Shown piece by piece: positions 14,333-31,083 of a DNA stretch of 42,034 nt. Below the pieces are notes generated by a model, which had not been told where the DNA came from, made no database searches, and saw only the letters and a program-made list of their open reading frames with translations. A program made the translations under genes and the position numbers. Source of the stretch: Candidatus Competibacteraceae bacterium (GTDB lineage: Bacteria > Pseudomonadota > Gammaproteobacteria > Competibacterales > Competibacteraceae); NCBI GenBank assembly GCA_020444905.1, contig JAGRHQ010000008.1, positions 1 through 42,034 on the forward strand. Direction: 5' to 3'. Every line of letters begins with the position of its first letter. Positions within the stretch are counted from its first letter, which is position 1.

Positions 14333-15493
14333 ATGAGCCGAACCTATCTGTTCACTTCCGAATCCGTCTCCGAGGGACATCCGGATAAAATCGCCGATCA
14401 GATTTCCGATGCCGTGCTGGATGCCATTATCGCCGAGGATCCCAGAGCGCGAGTCGCCTGCGAAACTTTGATCAAAACCGGCGTGGTTGTGCTGGCTGGA
14501 GAGATTACCACTTCAGCCTGGGTGGATTTCGACCAGATCGTGCGCGATACCGTCGTGGGCATTGGCTACGACAATTCCAACGTGGGTTTTGACGGCGCCA
14601 CCTGCGCGGTGCTGTCCTGCATCGGCAAGCAATCCGCCAATATCGCGCAAGGCGTGGATCGCGCTAAGCCCGAGGAACAGGGCGCAGGTGACCAGGGCCT
14701 GATGTTTGGCTACGCCACCAACGAAACGGATGTGCTGATGCCGGCGCCGATTACCTATGCTCATCGGTTGGTGCAGCGACAGGCGGAAATGCGCAAGAGC
14801 GGGGTGCTGCCCTGGTTGCGGCCGGACGCCAAGAGCCAGATCACCTTCCGCTATGAGGACAATCAGGTCGCCGGCGTCGAAGCCGTGGTGCTGTCAACCC
14901 AGCATGATGCCGACATTACTTACAAACTGCTGCGCGAAGCGGTGATGGAAAATATCGTCTTGCCCGTACTGCCTCCCGAATGGCTGGACAAGCATACCCA
15001 ATATCACATTAACCCAACCGGCAGTTTCGTCATCGGCGGTCCCGTGGGTGATTGCGGCCTGACCGGACGCAAGATCATCGTCGATACCTACGGCGGTTCC
15101 GCCCATCACGGCGGCGGGGCTTTTTCCGGTAAAGACCCCTCCAAGGTCGATCGTTCCGCGGCTTACGCCGGGCGTTATGTAGCCAAGAACATTGTCGCCG
15201 CCGGCCTGGCGGACAAATGCGAAATCCAGGTCTCCTATGCGATTGGCGTCGCTGAGCCGACATCAATCAACGTCAATACCTTTGGCACCGGCAAGCTGGA
15301 TGAAGACCGGCTGGTCACGATTATTCGCGGTCATTTCGATCTGCGGCCTTACGGACTGGTCAAGATGCTGGATCTGATCCGGCCCATCTACCGCAAGACG
15401 GCTGCTTACGGGCACTTTGGCCGGGAAGAACCGGAATTTACCTGGGAGCGCACCGACCGGGCCGATGCATTGCGCGAAGCCGCCGGACTTTGA
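14333..15493 (+). CDS. metK: S-adenosylmethionine synthetase
   Basis: MetK makes S-adenosylmethionine from methionine and ATP. The ATG at 14333 is chosen because the protein then begins [20 protein letters not shown], the conserved family start, with GAGG upstream; an in-frame ATG at 14279 only adds an unrelated leader. The 386-aa length is typical. Visible motifs are GHPDK (substrate site), [12 protein letters not shown] (ATP-binding hexapeptide region) and [16 protein letters not shown] (P-loop-like, near the C-terminal third). It heads the methyl-cycle cluster with ahcY and metF. The 239-bp upstream gap shows no SAM riboswitch that I recognise. Confidence 0.97.
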
Positions 15494-15597
15494 GCTTTTT
15501 GATGCTCATGGAACAATTTGCAAGTAATCGCGGTCATTTGGCAAGCGATTGACCTGATCATTGCTGTTTTTCTGCTTGATTGATTTTCCTGCCCCCC

Positions 15598-15673
15598 ACG
15601 TCGAGGGGCGCTGCAGCGGTCATCGACCGTCAGGCTCGGCGTGGCATGGCTTTCATAAGCCAACGGCGCCCGT
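15598..15673 (+). ncRNA. S-adenosylhomocysteine (SAH) riboswitch
   Basis: The leader of ahcY carries the conserved SAH riboswitch core: GAGGGGCGCTGCAGCGG, then CAGGCTCGG, then AACGGCGCCC. P1 pairs GGGCGC (15606-15611) with GCGCCC (15666-15671). P2 forms CGGTC/GACCG (15617-15621 with 15625-15629). The diagnostic pseudoknot pairs CGAG (15602-15605) with CTCG (15635-15638). A variable hairpin TGGCTT/AAGCCA (15647-15662) sits in the 3' linker. SAH binding is known to raise expression of the downstream gene. The element ends ~23 nt before the ahcY ATG, with GGAG (15687-15690) free when the pseudoknot forms. Confidence 0.92.
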
Positions 15674-15696
15674 TCATTCCAATACTGGAGAACGCT

Positions 15697-17115
15697 ATGA
15701 ACGCCGTCGTGCGCGAAAAACCGTTTACCGACTTTCACGTCGCCGATTTATCGCTGGCTACCTGGGGCCGCAAGGAAATCGCCATCGCCGAAACCGAAAT
15801 GCCGGGATTGATGGCGATTCGCGAGGAATACCGAGCGCAACAGCCGCTCAAAGGCGCCTGTATCGCCGGTTCCCTACACATGACCATTCAGACGGCAGTG
15901 TTGATTGAAACCTTGGCTGATCTTGGAGCCGACATCCGCTGGGCTTCCTGCAACATCTTTTCGACTCAGGATCACGCCGCCGCCGCGATTGCCGCCAGCA
16001 ACATTCCGGTCTTCGCTTACAAGGGCGAGTCGCTGGTGGAATACTGGGATTTCACCCACCGCATTCTGGAATGGCCGAATGGCGGCGCGCCCAATATGAT
16101 TCTCGACGATGGCGGCGACGCCACATTATTAGTGACGCTGGGCAGCCGGGCGGAGCAGGATCGTTCACTGATCGCCAATCCAACCTGTGAGGAAGAGCAG
16201 GTGCTGTTCGCGGCCATCCGCCAGCGATTGGAACGTCAGCCGGGCTGGTACTCGAAAATTCAGGCCAATATCCGAGGAGTGACCGAGGAAACCACCACCG
16301 GCGTTCATCGCCTGTACCAGATGGAGAAGGAAGGCCGCTTGCCCTTCCCAGCGTTCAACGTGAACGACTCGGTGACCAAGTCCAAATTCGATAATCTTTA
16401 TGGATGCCGCGAATCGCTGGTGGACGGCATCAAGCGGGCTACCGATGTGATGATCGCTGGAAAAATTGCTGTAGTTCTCGGCTATGGCGATGTGGGTAAA
16501 GGCTGCGCCCAGTCGCTGCGGGGTCTGGGAGCAACAGTGTGGGTCACGGAAATCGACCCGATTTGCGCCTTGCAGGCGGCGATGGAAGGTTATCGGGTAG
16601 TGCGTATGGATGATGTGGCGGATCAGGCGGACATCTTCGTTACCACCACGGGCAACGTGAGCGTGATTACCCATGACCACATGGCGCAGATGAAAAATCA
16701 GGCGATTGTGTGCAACATTGGTCATTTTGATTCGGAGATCGCGGTCGCCAGTTTGAAAGAATATTGCTGGGAGAACATCAAGCCTCAGGTTGATCACATC
16801 ATCTTCCCGGACGGCAAGCGGATTATCCTGCTGGCGGAGGGGCGATTGGTGAACCTCGGTTGCGCCACCGGCCATCCCTCGTTCGTGATGAGCAACAGTT
16901 TTACCAACCAGACGCTGGCGCAGATCGAGCTGTTCAATCACCGCGACCATTACGAAAACCGGGTCTACGTGTTGCCCAAGCATCTGGATGAAAAGGTCGC
17001 GCGGCTGCATCTGGACCGGATTGGGGCGAAATTGACCACGCTCACTCCGGAACAGGCGGCGTATATTGGCGTGGCGGTGGACGGACCGTATAAGGCGGAG
17101 AATTATCGGTACTAA
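15697..17115 (+). CDS. ahcY: S-adenosylhomocysteine hydrolase
   Basis: AhcY splits S-adenosylhomocysteine to adenosine and homocysteine, relieving inhibition of methyltransferases. The ATG at 15697 has GGAG seven bases upstream and gives a 472-aa protein, the usual length for long bacterial forms. In-frame codons from 15580 run through the riboswitch and are not coding. Motifs seen are [18 protein letters not shown] [21 protein letters not shown] in two halves, the NAD-binding GYGDVGKG and the C-terminal [11 protein letters not shown]. It lies under direct control of the SAH riboswitch. An imperfect hairpin (17125-17131 with 17147-17153) follows the stop codon. Confidence 0.97.
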
Positions 17116-17124
17116 GATGCATTT

Positions 17125-17153
17125 AGGAGTGATTTGCTTTCCGAACCACTCCT
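17125..17153. repeat. 7-bp inverted repeat between ahcY and the AAA ATPase gene
   Basis: AGGAGTG (17125-17131) pairs with CACTCCT (17147-17153) across a 15-nt loop. It lies ten bases after the ahcY stop and about 15 bases before the next ATG. There is no T-run. It may mark the end of the ahcY transcript or the left edge of the inserted module. Confidence 0.45.
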
Positions 17154-17168
17154 TCAGGCATTCCAGAC

Positions 17169-18158
17169 ATGGCAAGCGCAGATTTATTGATTGGACTTGT
17201 AAAAGCCGGGGCTTCGGGTGATGCCGCATTATTCCGGCGTCATGTCGAAGCTCTGATTGCGGATGAACGCGCTAAAAAACATGGTATCTTGGCCGATCGT
17301 CTGGTTGCTATTCTTCAGGATATCCCCACTAACACACCCCAAACACGACTGACCCCAAGTGGAAACGGAATACACTCTTTTCTCTTAGAGCAAGTTTCTG
17401 AACGCCCATTGGATACGCTCGTGCTTGCTCCAGAAACGGAAGCGCTCTGCCGAGAATTGATTACAGAGCAGCATCGCAGCGATCTTTTGAAAACCTATGG
17501 CCTTTCACCACGTCATAAGCTTTTAGTTGCAGGTCCTCCCGGCAATGGCAAAACGACGCTCGCTGAGGCCATCGCTTATGAACTGGCCGTGCCGTTGCTT
17601 GTGGTCCGTTACGAAAGCCTCATCGGTAGTTTCTTGGGAGAAACCGGAAGTCGGTTGCAAAAAATATTCGACTACGCCAGGACACAGCATTGTGTTTTAT
17701 TTTTCGATGAGTTCGAGATTCTCGGCAAGGAACGGGGCGATACTCGGGAAACTGGTGAAATCAAGCGGGTCGTCGGTACGCTGCTTACCCAAATTGATCG
17801 TCTGCCCAACTATGTCGTCACCATTGCTGCCAGTAATCACCCGGAATTGCTGGATAGAGCGGTTTGGCGCCGCTTCCAGCTACGGATTATTCTCTCAGCT
17901 CCGACCCGAAACCAGATTGCCCGATTTATTGAGTCCTTTGCAGAGCAACGTCGTTTCCAATTTGGCTTGGCATCTGGAACCATTGCCGAAAAGCTTTCAG
18001 GACACAGTTTTGCCGAGGTCGAAGAATTTTGCGTGGATGTTTTTCGACAAGCCATTCTGGCAGGAAGAACCGATCATCCACGCGAACTGACTCAACTCAA
18101 ACTCAGACAATGGCAGAATCGGGCTATGGCAAAGACCAACTTGGAAGTGAATGAATAA
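17169..18158 (+). CDS. ietA: AAA ATPase of an IetAS-type module
   Basis: A 329-aa AAA ATPase with Walker A GPPGNGKT (K128), Walker B LFFDEFE (D180, E181), sensor-1-like IAASNH and a second-region arginine in LLDRAVWRRF. It is followed 20 bp downstream by a subtilisin-like protease gene. This ATPase-plus-protease pair matches IetA/IetS, described from an Agrobacterium Ti plasmid as a stability (toxin-antitoxin-like) pair and later reported among anti-phage systems. IetA is thought to control the protease. No good ribosome-binding site precedes the ATG. The N-terminal ~100 residues are helical and lack a known motif. The pair sits between ahcY and metF, genes that usually adjoin, which suggests insertion. 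Confidence 0.85.
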   Translation: MASADLLIGLVKAGASGDAALFRRHVEALIADERAKKHGILADRLVAILQDIPTNTPQTRLTPSGNGIHSFLLEQVSERPLDTLVLAPETEALCRELITEQHRSDLLKTYGLSPRHKLLVAGPPGNGKTTLAEAIAYELAVPLLVVRYESLIGSFLGETGSRLQKIFDYARTQHCVLFFDEFEILGKERGDTRETGEIKRVVGTLLTQIDRLPNYVVTIAASNHPELLDRAVWRRFQLRIILSAPTRNQIARFIESFAEQRRFQFGLASGTIAEKLSGHSFAEVEEFCVDVFRQAILAGRTDHPRELTQLKLRQWQNRAMAKTNLEVNE

Positions 18159-18178
18159 AGCAAACAGGAGAGTAGTAC

Positions 18179-20764
18179 ATGGCGTCGGAACAGCCGCTGC
18201 TAGTTTTCCCATCTTTTCAACGTGCCAAGCGTGATAAGGGATTTAGTATAGGAAAGCTGCCTCATACGCCAAGCAAATCAGAGCAAATAAAACGCCTTGG
18301 TCCCCAATTCAAGCGTCTGCAGCAAGCCTTCAAGGCCGAACGGCTGGCGCTTCAAACAGATTCCCAAGGTCTTTTCCCTGAGTTTGTTTTGGTTATTGAA
18401 ACCCGTGGGCGCATTGAAGATTTTTACCGCGCAGCCCAAGCTATTGGCATAGGTTGGCTTGGTGAAATTGACCTTGATGGTTTAGAGCCGGATGACGATT
18501 TTTATATTCCAGATAAAAATGGACAGCGCACCGAAAAACACTTGGATGGGCGACTTTATCTGGGAATGACTGACCAACGAGCACTAGAGGAACTTCTGCG
18601 GCTCTGGGGGCGTTTCAAGGAGGAGCAACCTCTTGGTCAGGGGAATGCCAAATGGCGAGAACTTTTCAGCCATGCTAAAGAAATCCGCCGCTGGGGCGTC
18701 AAAGATCGATTAATTGATTACGGTATTCTTGATGATTGGGCGCAGAGTATTGAAGACGATCCAAGTGCTCCTGTCACCTTCAGAGTAGAACTTTGGTATC
18801 CAGAAAAACCGGATAACTCTAGTCGCCAAGCCCATCAACAAGCCGAAGAAGATACTGTCCGCCAGGCGATTATTGCTGGTGGCGGAGAAATTTTGGCAAA
18901 TATACGGATAGATGAAATTCATTTTCATGCCTTCAAAGGCCAAATCCCTGTATCGGTAGCACGTTCCGCATTTCGAGTACTGGAATCGGAAGATGAAACT
19001 GGTCTAGCTACCTTATTTCGTAATAACGCTATCAGAACCTTTTTGCCGATAGCTCAAGGTATTGCTTCTTTACCTAGTGAGGGCGAACCATCTATATTTT
19101 TTTCTAAACCTCTGCCAAACGATAAACCACCAGTAGTCGCTTTGCTTGATGGGTACCCGTTTTCCCAACATGATGTATTAAATAATCGGATTGACATTTA
19201 TGACCCCGATATTTTGCTCTCTAAATATCCTCACCCAAAGAATATGCGGCATGGAACCGCAATGGCATCTCTCATTGTACATGGTGAGTTGGATGCCAAT
19301 GAGCCACCATTAAGTCGACGTATATTCTGTCAACCGATTCTCGAGCCTGATCTAATGAGTCGGAACGAGGATGAGCATATTCCAGAAACCGTTTTTGCTG
19401 AGGATCGGGTACATAAAGCAATCGTTGAAATGTTTGAGGGGGATAAGCCTACAGCACCTACGATTTATATCGTCAATCTTTCTATTGGCGAACAACCATT
19501 TTTCCGAGAAATAAGTCCTTGGGCTAGATTAATAGATTGGTTAGCATGGAAATATAAGCTACTCTTCTTAATTAGCTCAGGTAATCAAGGAATAAATATA
19601 AATCTTGGCTTAGACGAATCTACTTTTTTAGCGAATACAGATAAAAAAAAGATTCAAACCTTACTTCATCATCACCAAAAAAACCTATTTGATCGACGCT
19701 TATTAAGCCCAAGTGAAGCAATCAATGCGCTGACGATTGGAGCACAGCATAAAGATTATTCAACCATTTCCTATCTTGCGAACCGAGTAGATTTGCTGCC
19801 TTCAAATAACTTTCCTAATCCGGCAAGCCGTTTAGGACCAGGATTTCGACAAGCAATCAAACCAGAAATCCTGCTACCCGGTGGGAGGCAACTCTACCGT
19901 TACTGCCTTACCTCGAATGGAGCTTATTCCATCGATAAAAATAAAATTGCTCCCGGACAAAAAACTGCTGCGCCAGACCATACAGGTACGGGGTTAACAA
20001 ATGATTGCATCTACACCCGTGGCACCAGCAACGCTACTGCCTTAGCGACTCGCGCCGCTGCCAAACTTTACGAAGTTTTAGAGGGAATGAAAAACTTACC
20101 TGGCGGTGATTGCATTAATAGAGATACTACCGCTCCGTTATTAAAGGCATTAATCGTTCACAGCGCCACTTGGCCAGATGAAGCCATAGATGTACTGAAA
20201 ACAGTTGTTCCAAAGGGCAATAAACAAAAACGAGGAATTACCCGCTTTCTCGGCTATGGAGTTGCCGACCCAGCACGAGTAGAAGCCTGTGTCGCCCAGC
20301 GTGCTACGGTATTAGGCGCTGGCTTGTTGCAGCAGGACGAAGCCCATGAATATGAACTCCCGATTCCTGTTGAGTTAAGCAATACGACGGAATGGCGTCG
20401 GTTGATCATTACGCTGGCTTGGCTCACGCCAGTCAATCCAACCCATCGAGTGTACCGCAAAGCCAAATTGAGCTTTCAGCCACCCAAAGACCTTTTGGCA
20501 GTCGATAGGCAACACGCCGACTGGCAACAAGTTCAAAAGGGTACGGTTCAGCACGAAGTCCTGGAAGGGAAAAAAGCCTGCGTTTTCCAAGACGGCGACA
20601 GTCTGCGAATTAAAATCGCTGCGCAAGGCGACACCAGCCAAAATTTTGATGAAGCAATCCCTTACGGTCTTGCCATTACCCTGGAAGTGGAAGACCAAAG
20701 TGGAATTCCGATTTACGAGCGCGTTCGGGAAAAGTTAACCGTTCGGATTGTCGCTTCGGTCTGA
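18179..20764 (+). CDS. ietS: Subtilisin-like (S8) protease of an IetAS-type module
   Basis: An 861-aa protein with an S8 serine protease domain in its middle. The catalytic residues are D324 in ALLDGYP, H358 in MRHGTAMASL and S617 in RGTSNATALA; the oxyanion Asn is N469 in SSGNQG. No signal peptide is present, so it should act in the cytoplasm. The N-terminal ~300 residues form an uncharacterised region that may be an inhibitory or sensing domain; the C-terminal ~170 residues look beta-rich. AGGAG lies upstream of the ATG, and the gene is 20 bp after ietA, so the two are almost surely co-transcribed. Base composition is visibly more AT-rich (for example 19480-19700) than in the flanking met genes, which fits horizontal acquisition. 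The substrate is unknown. Confidence 0.87.
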   Translation: MASEQPLLVFPSFQRAKRDKGFSIGKLPHTPSKSEQIKRLGPQFKRLQQAFKAERLALQTDSQGLFPEFVLVIETRGRIEDFYRAAQAIGIGWLGEIDLDGLEPDDDFYIPDKNGQRTEKHLDGRLYLGMTDQRALEELLRLWGRFKEEQPLGQGNAKWRELFSHAKEIRRWGVKDRLIDYGILDDWAQSIEDDPSAPVTFRVELWYPEKPDNSSRQAHQQAEEDTVRQAIIAGGGEILANIRIDEIHFHAFKGQIPVSVARSAFRVLESEDETGLATLFRNNAIRTFLPIAQGIASLPSEGEPSIFFSKPLPNDKPPVVALLDGYPFSQHDVLNNRIDIYDPDILLSKYPHPKNMRHGTAMASLIVHGELDANEPPLSRRIFCQPILEPDLMSRNEDEHIPETVFAEDRVHKAIVEMFEGDKPTAPTIYIVNLSIGEQPFFREISPWARLIDWLAWKYKLLFLISSGNQGININLGLDESTFLANTDKKKIQTLLHHHQKNLFDRRLLSPSEAINALTIGAQHKDYSTISYLANRVDLLPSNNFPNPASRLGPGFRQAIKPEILLPGGRQLYRYCLTSNGAYSIDKNKIAPGQKTAAPDHTGTGLTNDCIYTRGTSNATALATRAAAKLYEVLEGMKNLPGGDCINRDTTAPLLKALIVHSATWPDEAIDVLKTVVPKGNKQKRGITRFLGYGVADPARVEACVAQRATVLGAGLLQQDEAHEYELPIPVELSNTTEWRRLIITLAWLTPVNPTHRVYRKAKLSFQPPKDLLAVDRQHADWQQVQKGTVQHEVLEGKKACVFQDGDSLRIKIAAQGDTSQNFDEAIPYGLAITLEVEDQSGIPIYERVREKLTVRIVASV

Positions 20765-20817: not shown

Positions 20818-21678
20818 ATGGAATCTCAAATCAAACATCCCAAGATTTTCAGTTGCGAATTCTTCCCGCCCATCACCGTCGAGGGCTTCACTAAACTCCA
20901 GGCGGCTCGCCAGGAATTACTGGTGATGCATCCGGCGTATTTCTCGGTTACCTACGGCGCCGGCGGTTCCACCCGCGACCGCACGGTGGAAGTAGTGCTG
21001 GATATTCAAGCCAACAGCGGCGTACCGGCCACTCCGCATTTGACCTGCATCGCCTCAACCCGGAGCAGCGTCCGCGAACTGTTGAACCACTATAAAGCGC
21101 ACGGTATCCGCCGCATCGTCGCATTGCGTGGTGATATGCCCTCGGGGATGCGTGATCCCGGCGAATTTCGCTACGCTAACGAACTGGTCCGCTTTATTCG
21201 TGAGGAATTTGGCGAGCATTTTCATCTCGAAGTCGCCGCCTATCCCGAATATCACCCTCAAGCATCCAGTCCTGATCAGGACTTACAAAACTTCCAGCGC
21301 AAAGTCGATGCGGGCGCCAACAGCGCTATTACCCAGTATTTCTATAATCCCGACGCCTATTTCCGTTTCATCGACCAATGTACGCGCCGGGGCATCGATA
21401 TTCCCATCGTGCCAGGCATCATGCCGATCACCAATTTCACCCAGTTAGCGCGCTTTTCCGATGCCTGCGGCGCGGAAATTCCCCGGTGGATTCGCAAGAA
21501 GCTGGAAAGTTTTGGCGATGACCGCGACGCCATTCGCGCCTTTGGTCTGGACGCGGTTAGCGCGCTTTGCCGGACCTTACTCGATGGCGGCGCGCCAGGC
21601 TTGCATTTTTACACAATGAATCAAGCCGGATTAACCTTGGCCATCAGCGAACGGCTGGGGTTGTTGACCGCCAATTAA
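20818..21678 (+). CDS. metF: 5,10-methylenetetrahydrofolate reductase
   Basis: MetF is a flavoprotein that reduces methylene-THF to methyl-THF, the methyl donor for methionine synthesis. The protein shows the family start KIFSCEFFPP, the THF/FAD region YFSVTYGAGGSTRDRT, HLTCIA, ALRGDMP and PGIMPITNF. The start is either 20818 (MESQIKHP, 286 aa) or 20794 (294 aa); neither has a clear ribosome-binding site and the shorter form fits the family better. The gene completes the metK-ahcY-metF methyl cycle but is now 3.7 kb from ahcY because of the IetAS genes, so read-through from the riboswitch-controlled transcript may be reduced. A terminator hairpin follows. Confidence 0.96.
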   Translation: MESQIKHPKIFSCEFFPPITVEGFTKLQAARQELLVMHPAYFSVTYGAGGSTRDRTVEVVLDIQANSGVPATPHLTCIASTRSSVRELLNHYKAHGIRRIVALRGDMPSGMRDPGEFRYANELVRFIREEFGEHFHLEVAAYPEYHPQASSPDQDLQNFQRKVDAGANSAITQYFYNPDAYFRFIDQCTRRGIDIPIVPGIMPITNFTQLARFSDACGAEIPRWIRKKLESFGDDRDAIRAFGLDAVSALCRTLLDGGAPGLHFYTMNQAGLTLAISERLGLLTAN

Positions 21679-21700: not shown

Positions 21701-21730
21701 ACAATGCCCTTCCACATGGAAGGGCATTGT
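21701..21730. terminator. Bidirectional terminator between metF and the flgO-like gene
   Basis: A perfect 13-bp stem (21701-21713 with 21718-21730) with an ACAT loop lies between two convergent genes. T-runs are short on both sides (GTATTTG on +, TGTTTAA on -), so efficiency is uncertain. A smaller hairpin CCGAT/ATCGG (21679-21692) directly follows the metF stop. Confidence 0.75.
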
Positions 21731-21746: not shown

Positions 21747-22310
21747 TTACTGAGCAGCAATCAGCGCTTTGGCATCCGGCCCCAGAGGCAGCACATAGTC
21801 ATGGGAAGCCAGCACTAGATTATCAGTGGCGCGGATCAGACGAGCGTTGACGAACACCGACGTCCGGCCCACCGCATAGGTACCGGCAATCACCGCCGCC
21901 GCGTTATGCGACTGGCTGATCTCCCTGACAGAACGCGACAAAGCGAACTCGCCCGCGCCCTCCTGAACGAAGATGTTATTACGCATCTTGATCTCGATCA
22001 CCGTGAAACCCTGCTGGGCGAACCGCGAACCCAGTTGTTCGCCAATCACGCGCCCCAGGCCCGATGACATTTCAAGATTATTAATATCTACAAACGTCGC
22101 TGACAGCAGCGGCTCACGGCGCTCCCGCAACCAGGGCGCTCTTATGAGCAAGGCATCCGCCGCCTGATAGTTCTGGCTGATCAAGTCCGCATCCTGGATG
22201 ATGGGTCGGACCGGCGTTTCATCGCCTGAAGAGGCGCATCCCTGGATACCCGCCAAGCCGAACAGAGCCAGCAATGCGACTCCCGCACGTAGGATCATAT
22301 TCCAGTTCAT
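21747..22310 (-). CDS. FlgO-family lipoprotein
   Basis: A 187-aa lipoprotein: hydrophobic signal then GIQGCASSG, where the cysteine is lipidated. The mature part matches the FlgO domain, with NYQAADALL, PLLSATFVDINNLEMSSGLGRVIGEQLGSRF and the C-terminal AGTYAVGRTSVFVNARLIRA in two parts. In Vibrio, FlgO is an outer-membrane protein supporting flagellar stability; in bacteria without adjacent flagellar genes, as here, FlgO-domain proteins have unknown roles. Its ATG overlaps the stop of the preceding lipoprotein gene by four bases, so the two are translationally coupled. Confidence 0.85.
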   Translation of the reverse strand: MNWNMILRAGVALLALFGLAGIQGCASSGDETPVRPIIQDADLISQNYQAADALLIRAPWLRERREPLLSATFVDINNLEMSSGLGRVIGEQLGSRFAQQGFTVIEIKMRNNIFVQEGAGEFALSRSVREISQSHNAAAVIAGTYAVGRTSVFVNARLIRATDNLVLASHDYVLPLGPDAKALIAAQ

Positions 22311-22852
22311 GGTCCGACCACCTCTATGATGCGACTCGCCGATTGCTGCATGGCAATGTATTGGCTTTTATCGCCAACATAATAAACATTGCTATATCGG
22401 ATCAGATAACGATCAGCGTTCATGACCGAAACATTGACAATGACTTCGTACTCGACGGTTTCCGGCAACCCAGATTTTACCACCTGCATGTCATAGCTGA
22501 CGGGTAAACCGGCTGAAGGATTGGTAGTGAGAATGAATCCCCGTTCTACAAGACGCGTAGTCAATAAGTCATAAAACCCCGCGCCTGCCGCGCTGTCGTA
22601 TCTGGGCTGCTCGAGATACAAGCTAATGGTTGGACGGTCCTGAGCCTCATGCTCTTTATCGTACTCAGAATCTGGCGTCATTAAGGCGTCTTGTAGCCAA
22701 TTGGCTACATCAATCGCCATGACATCCCAGTGATGCGCCGACCGCATCTTCTGTTGGTAGGTGAGCGGATAGGTCGTCTCGACGGGCATTGGAGTTGTGC
22801 AAGCCCCCAGCCCCAAACAGAGAACAATAAGAGAAGCATACAAGGTCTTCAT
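22307..22852 (-). CDS. Lipoprotein of unknown function, coupled to the FlgO-like gene
   Basis: A 181-aa protein with a signal peptide and lipobox LGACTT. I do not recognise a family. The mature part contains YDSAAGAGFYDLLTTRLVE and VEYEVIVNVSVMNADRYLIRY, predicting an alpha/beta fold like that of other small periplasmic lipoproteins. It comes first in a two-gene minus-strand operon, overlapping the FlgO-like gene at ATGA (22307-22310), so the two products probably act together at the outer membrane. Confidence 0.8.
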   Translation of the reverse strand: MKTLYASLIVLCLGLGACTTPMPVETTYPLTYQQKMRSAHHWDVMAIDVANWLQDALMTPDSEYDKEHEAQDRPTISLYLEQPRYDSAAGAGFYDLLTTRLVERGFILTTNPSAGLPVSYDMQVVKSGLPETVEYEVIVNVSVMNADRYLIRYSNVYYVGDKSQYIAMQQSASRIIEVVGP

Positions 22853-30663: not shown

Positions 30664-31020
30664 TTACTTACGGATTGCCCGGCGCGGCCCTTTGCGCGTC
30701 CTGGCGTTGGTGCGAGTGCGCTGGCCGCGAACGGGCAGACCACGCCGATGACGCAGCCCCCGGTAACAACCCAAATCCATCAATCGCTTGATGCTCATCG
30801 ACACTTCGCGGCGCAGATCGCCTTCCACTGCATACTTGGCCACTTCGGCGCGCAAAGTATCCACCTGAGCTTCATCCAGATCTCGAATCTTGCGATCCGG
30901 TGGAACCTGGGCCGCCGCACAGATGGATTTGGCGCGAGTCGGGCCAATGCCATAAATAGCCTGCAACGCGATCACCGCGTGCTTGTTAACTGGGATATTA
31001 ATGCCTGCAATACGGGCCAT
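30664..31020 (-). CDS. rpsM: 30S ribosomal protein S13
   Basis: A 118-aa S13 starting [20 protein letters not shown], with the helix-hairpin motif [14 protein letters not shown] and the Arg/Lys-rich tail [21 protein letters not shown] in two parts. It sits in the 30S head and bridges to the 50S subunit. GGAGGAG precedes the ATG. It is the first gene of the alpha operon, with a possible leader structure upstream. Confidence 0.98.
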
Positions 31021-31043
31021 GCCTTGCTGCTCCTCCTACCTCA

Positions 31044-31083
31044 CCGGGTCTTCGCTACGCAAAGAAGCGGAAATTTAACCCGG
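31044..31083 (-). promoter_or_regulatory. Possible S4-responsive leader structure of the alpha operon
   Basis: In the 95-bp gap between rpmJ and rpsM, CCGGGT (31044-31049) pairs with ACCCGG (31078-31083), enclosing CTTC/GAAG (31050-31053 with 31064-31067). In E. coli the rpsM leader folds into a pseudoknot bound by S4. The position is the same, but I cannot show the pseudoknot here. Confidence 0.3.

Follow-up and report, generated by a model that had tools for sequence, protein, structure and literature searches.

Anti-phage activity of IetAS, a pair made of an AAA ATPase and an S8 peptidase, was reportedly first described by Gao et al. in 2020. In homologous pairs the subtilase is the toxin and the AAA ATPase the antitoxin, as described for SgiAT of Salmonella genomic island 1 (PMC5006074) and TA132/133 of Mycoplasma mycoides (PMC8562856); in Pseudomonas, IetAS is correlated with resistance to phages (PMC11878078). 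Varied defence systems also occupy the core hotspots cDHS1 and cDHS2 of Pseudomonas aeruginosa, where they lie between fixed core genes without an integrase; recombination in the flanks was suggested, not shown, as the route of transfer (PMC10250203). The sections available to us of the work on the SAH riboswitch regulon (RF01057) give ahcY and metF as core members and list metabolic, membrane and rRNA-methylation genes as extra members, with no defence genes among these (PMC4239095).

We analysed a window (the whole stretch of DNA under study, 42,034 nucleotides) from a draft genome of Candidatus Competibacteraceae, whose relatives include Candidatus Contendobacter MAGs. As in the regulon described in those sections (PMC4239095), the aptamer lies upstream of ahcY, but here the operon also holds defence genes, an ietAS pair between ahcY and metF (Table 1). 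We hold with good confidence that the pair is a horizontally spread immunity cassette in a riboswitch-led methyl-cycle operon, and that the ahcY-metF junction is a recurrent, family-specific landing site for defence genes. Such genes normally reside on islands or mobile elements; here a conserved metabolic operon is the landing site. IetAS itself is a known kind of system and the landing site is the new part. The source is one contig of a draft genome, and given the syntenic core genes around the pair its location is likely chromosomal. We found neither a tRNA nor a tmRNA in the window.

Table 1. Features of the ahcY-metF locus in the window and of other cargo at the same junction in relatives (positions with an L prefix refer to loci of relatives).
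Feature	Position	Strand	Remarks
metK, SAM synthetase	14333..15493	+	conserved upstream neighbour; metK-ahcY order the same in relatives
SAH riboswitch aptamer	15597..15678	+	RF01057, 62.6 bits (cutoff 37); upstream of ahcY
ahcY, SAH hydrolase	15697..17115	+	left flank of the insertion; 98% amino acid identity to empty-site congener G002
Two-tier hairpin, ahcY stop to ietA start	17116..17162	+	-18.1 kcal/mol, z -3.6; without U-tract
ietA, AAA+ ATPase, 329 aa	17169..18158	+	PADLOC IetA, E 9e-137
ietS Shine-Dalgarno AGGAG	18166..18170	+	kept in all carriers
ietS, subtilase-type S8 peptidase, 861 aa	18179..20764	+	PADLOC IetS, E 1.6e-285; PF00082
Probable replaced tract: spacer, ietAS and first metF codons	17116..20860	.	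genus g9-like donor ancestry
metF, methylenetetrahydrofolate reductase	20818..21678	+	PF02219, E 5.8e-93; right flank
Strong inverted repeat 3' of metF	21701..21730	.	13-pair stem; listed on - strand with T-rich tail; likely the operon end
Insert of G016, contig 60, 7 kb	L077:1659-8599		DndC, DndD, DndE/FtsK-like and AriA/AriB-like genes between ahcY and metF
G004, contig 236	L079:1-420		strong hairpin, then truncated MAD2-like DNA methyltransferase gene, directly after ahcY
1.2 kb block	L058:6595-7790		also in L039, L040 and L042, between ietS and metF

To place the pair, we searched both proteins against defence-system profiles. IetA matched the PADLOC model PDLC04232 over residues 1-323 (453.8 bits) and IetS matched PDLC04233 over residues 1-857 (947.5 bits), with the Pfam domains AAA and Peptidase_S8, respectively. 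These full-length matches bear out the assignment to the IetA and IetS families made in the initial annotation; scores against the NCBIfam equivalogs were far lower and missed the cut-offs by a wide margin (IteA NF042959, 220.4 against 510 bits; IteS NF042956, 72.5 against 900 bits). Judged by these profile scores, the window pair is a distinct clade within the wider IetAS family, not an equivalog. It shares gene order, domain pairing and catalytic residues with described IetAS, but differs in falling below the NCBIfam cut-offs and in lying in a metabolic operon as opposed to a plasmid or island. The pairing of an AAA antitoxin with a subtilase toxin is likewise shared with SgiAT and TA132/133 (PMC5006074, PMC8562856), but those modules are on or near mobile elements and their toxicity was tested, whereas the window pair is known from its genes.

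A tight ATPase/protease pair with a full D324/H358/S617 triad had been described, and this holds to the nucleotide: the two ORFs are co-directional, with a gap of 20 nt, and the three residues together with the oxyanion N469 are invariant in IetS across seven homologues of 33-81% identity. In IetA, the Walker A motif (G122-K128), the Walker B residues D180-E181, N223 and R234/R235 are invariant in homologues down to 46% identity. The model of IetA (pLDDT 79) has an AAA+ fold with an N-terminal helical domain and p97/proteasome-ATPase neighbours, and IetA is predicted to be a Cdc48/proteasome-ATPase-like AAA+ protein. The model of IetS was poor (pLDDT 55) and its fold comparison was discarded; phmmer returned no solved structure related to IetS, inspection by eye showed no signal peptide and no relatives were found in the phage collection. 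Two out of four further ietAS copies are apparently disrupted, one in G035 (a MAG of 2.5x coverage) and one on a contig binned with G003 (one stop), indicating that intactness is not universal.

We next compared the junction across genomes. In our family sample of 39 genomes, ahcY and metF are on one contig in 27, and in 21 of these (tallied by hand) the two genes directly adjoin, with a gap of about 20 to 350 bp. The nearest congener, G002, has such an empty junction. Contigs of G008, G014 and G021 break off at the junction. The ietAS pair occupies the junction in the window genome (G000), in three carriers from another genus (G025, G029 and G035) and on one contig, C102, of G003. G003 has a second junction, an empty one on C7, so that C102 is probably misbinned. 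Outside the family we sampled 82 genomes of the class in which ahcY and metF adjoin, and one of these 82 has a gap above 1 kb (hand tally). Thus, the pair does separate ahcY from a usually adjoining metF. Inserts above 1 kb are concentrated in the family (6/27 junctions versus 1/82 in the rest of the class; Fisher test, p 8e-4, or 0.01 with the IetAS carriers collapsed, in a test that counts related genomes as independent). The clade of the window's IetS was found in five other genomes out of 368 class-wide, none of which has ahcY or metF within about 1.5 kb on each side, so the link between IetAS and ahcY looks family-specific. The inserts of G131 (0.8 kb) and G049 (1.7 kb) yielded no clear gene. 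Two other families have a small four-helix gene, S23-like by eye, between ahcY and metF (L094:1084-1440 and L095:1530-1910). A 4 kb interval between metK and ahcY in G018, considered as possible defence cargo, holds a pyruvate carboxylase-like gene instead.

IetAS is one of several cargoes found behind ahcY. In the insert of G016, both DndC and DndD exceed the TIGRFAM cut-offs, the DndE/FtsK-like protein is related to SspH, and an AAA_21 ATPase and a DUF4435 protein resemble AriA and AriB (PARIS-like). This insert is seamless, the dndC start overlapping the ahcY stop (TAATG) and the last gene ending 13 nt before metF. The MAD2-like gene of G004 is cut by the contig end, so that its position relative to metF is not seen; metF of that genome is elsewhere, next to TerD-like genes. 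Each of these two arrangements was seen in one genome. The junction of G013 holds a 1.2 kb block made of a gene for a retropepsin-like aspartyl protease and an ORF of 175 aa in antisense that matches nothing in Pfam or PADLOC, and the same block separates ietS from metF in G025, G029 and on the G003 contig. Elsewhere, IetAS homologues adjoin type I or type III restriction genes or DISARM-like (DrmD-like) genes, as expected of a defence pair.

Different defence sets, IetAS and DndCD/PARIS-like, are thus found between the same core genes, and from these comparisons of gene order the ahcY-metF junction seems to be a place where immunity genes land repeatedly in one family. Fixed core genes around varied defence systems, without an integrase, are shared with cDHS1/2 (PMC10250203), but the ahcY-metF junction has no flanking tRNA or tmRNA, its cargo sits co-directionally in a riboswitch-led operon, and it is mostly empty (6/27 occupied) in a sample of few genomes. 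The landing site is a novel variant of a core defence hotspot, in which a riboswitch-led core metabolic operon takes different defence sets. An ahcY-metF gap above 1 kb is, accordingly, a simple marker for finding new defence systems.

Composition and divergence both indicate that the pair was acquired. Consistent with its description as more AT-rich than its surroundings, GC3 is 0.70 in ahcY, only 0.46 in ietA and 0.38 in ietS, and again higher, 0.64, in metF; across carriers, ietS has a GC3 of 0.38-0.41 versus 0.70-0.85 for the neighbouring ahcY. With this foreign composition and its absence from many relatives, the pair is inserted and not native, as had been proposed. Between the window and the carriers of the other genus, dS of ietA and ietS (0.58-0.89) is below that of the flanking genes (ahcY, 1.07-1.33; metF, 1.40-2.10; ribonucleotide reductase, 1.47-2.43), indicating that ietAS crossed genera after these genera split. 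Over the same comparisons dN/dS is 0.07-0.09 for ietA and 0.13-0.15 for ietS, and the overall range for both genes (0.06-0.17) indicates purifying selection. The order of dS is reversed for ietA between G029 and G025 (0.56 versus 0.11-0.48 in the flanks), and ietA, not ietS, is near-identical between G025 and the G003 contig, showing that the cassette itself is mosaic.

The edges of the insertion point to how it moved. Identity between the window and G002 is about 95% up to the ahcY stop, then collapses, and recovers inside metF near 20850-20880. Between these breakpoints the window matches G035, of another genus, and its metF begins with the G035-type codons MESQ, where G002 has MPQS. Conversely, metF of G025, G029 and G013 begins with MPQS, the type of the window's own genus, beside the 1.2 kb block. 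Such a two-way exchange of metF starts is a prediction of recombination in flanking core genes, and from these alignments homologous recombination within the genes on either side probably transferred the ietAS block; recombination could equally have deleted the cassette from G002. The comparative evidence is thus for a cassette that moved between genera via its core-gene flanks, without an integrase.

To examine how the pair might be expressed, we searched the 53-nt spacer between ahcY and ietA. No consensus match to a sigma-70-like promoter or an intrinsic terminator was found there on the + strand; over the region, counts of both are at shuffle level, and we relied only on their absence from this spacer. 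It is this absence that makes read-through from ahcY the simplest reading, and ietAS is likely transcribed in this way. In carriers the spacer folds as a two-tier hairpin of -18 to -27 kcal/mol, with 4 compensated pairs among only 4 distinct carrier sequences (shuffled mean 1.6). Empty-site relatives also have hairpins 3' of ahcY, which suggests a 3' end or stability element more than a part of IetAS. The hairpin is conserved but has no U-tract; a canonical terminator, which would have spoken against the initial annotation, is absent between ahcY and ietA. No Shine-Dalgarno sequence is visible before ietA, whereas ietS has a conserved one, and together with the stable hairpin this could hold expression low. 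Under our preferred reading, ietA and ietS would be transcribed by read-through, and the operon would supply steady housekeeping expression, possibly higher on SAH build-up. An IetA ring would restrain IetS or feed it substrates; infection, or loss of IetA, would free the cytoplasmic protease, which may then halt phage growth through cell death or arrest.

Why defence genes should collect behind ahcY can be read in several ways. We lean towards passive parking, in which the junction costs little to occupy and provides constitutive expression, and SAH is irrelevant to defence. Consistent with this, the pair has no consensus promoter of its own, and the junction accepts non-defence cargo (the block of G013 and the S23-like four-helix genes of G113 and G146); the concentration of inserts in one family and the share of defence genes among them are left unexplained by it. 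It is possible, but we think it rather improbable, that the pair is instead a toxin-antitoxin stabiliser with no anti-phage role, whose loss is lethal, as with sgiAT and ietAS of pTi. The homologous toxin-antitoxin pairs of SGI1 (PMC5006074) and mycoplasma (PMC8562856) argue for such a role, but no mobile element is present to be stabilised, the pair is missing from many relatives, apparently broken ietS copies exist and homologues elsewhere cluster with restriction systems. A stabiliser role and a defence role are compatible and need not exclude one another.

That the pair lies downstream of a true SAH riboswitch, as first annotated, was confirmed by the RF01057 match, and with this locus one can ask directly if immunity can be under riboswitch control. 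The RF01057 aptamer is present in eight related loci in the same direction. SAH riboswitches act as ON switches, and their genes are turned on when SAH rises. In a functional coupling, SAH build-up would raise ietAS, Dnd or the methyltransferase along with ahcY. The aptamer is directly upstream in the carriers, G016 and G004, the differing defence genes are co-directional with ahcY, and dndC of G016 overlaps its stop; yet most sites are empty, the aspartyl-protease block of G013 is cargo not known as defence, any insert at the junction would be co-regulated passively, and the hairpin after ahcY may uncouple what follows. Destruction of SAM by phage SAM hydrolases or lyases, suggested earlier as a trigger, fails on direction, since it would bring SAH down; for any coupling, the sensible trigger would be methylation by the phage or poor clearance of SAH. 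We rank passive co-expression above selected SAH control, which we consider unlikely. Less likely again is metabolite-sensing immunity, in which unrelated defence cassettes were recruited so that defence is turned on by a rise in SAH, which forms as a by-product when phage or restriction enzymes methylate; a search of the literature available to us found no paper that links riboswitch, S-adenosylhomocysteine and phage defence. A native role of the two genes as a housekeeping protease pair in methyl metabolism would fit the operon position and the purifying selection, but is highly improbable given the empty sites in most relatives, the foreign GC3 and the presence of the pair in defence islands elsewhere.

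Several further features were observed. Distant IetAS pairs occur in the same family in G012, G024 and G031 (L089, L090 and L091), beside a type III methyltransferase gene in G012 and beside type I restriction genes in G024. On the - strand of the window, positions 30988-31073 match the Rfam family Alpha_RBS right at threshold (38.2 versus 38 bits). A lipoprotein-like gene at 22307-22852 is about 41% identical to its counterparts in the window's own genus versus 71-73% to those of genus g12, and by this measure is likely another exchange near ietAS. The ribonucleotide reductase gene is intact in the window; in several relatives (L051, L058, L059 and L040) about 1 kb, likely an intein or intron, interrupts it near codons 188-339.
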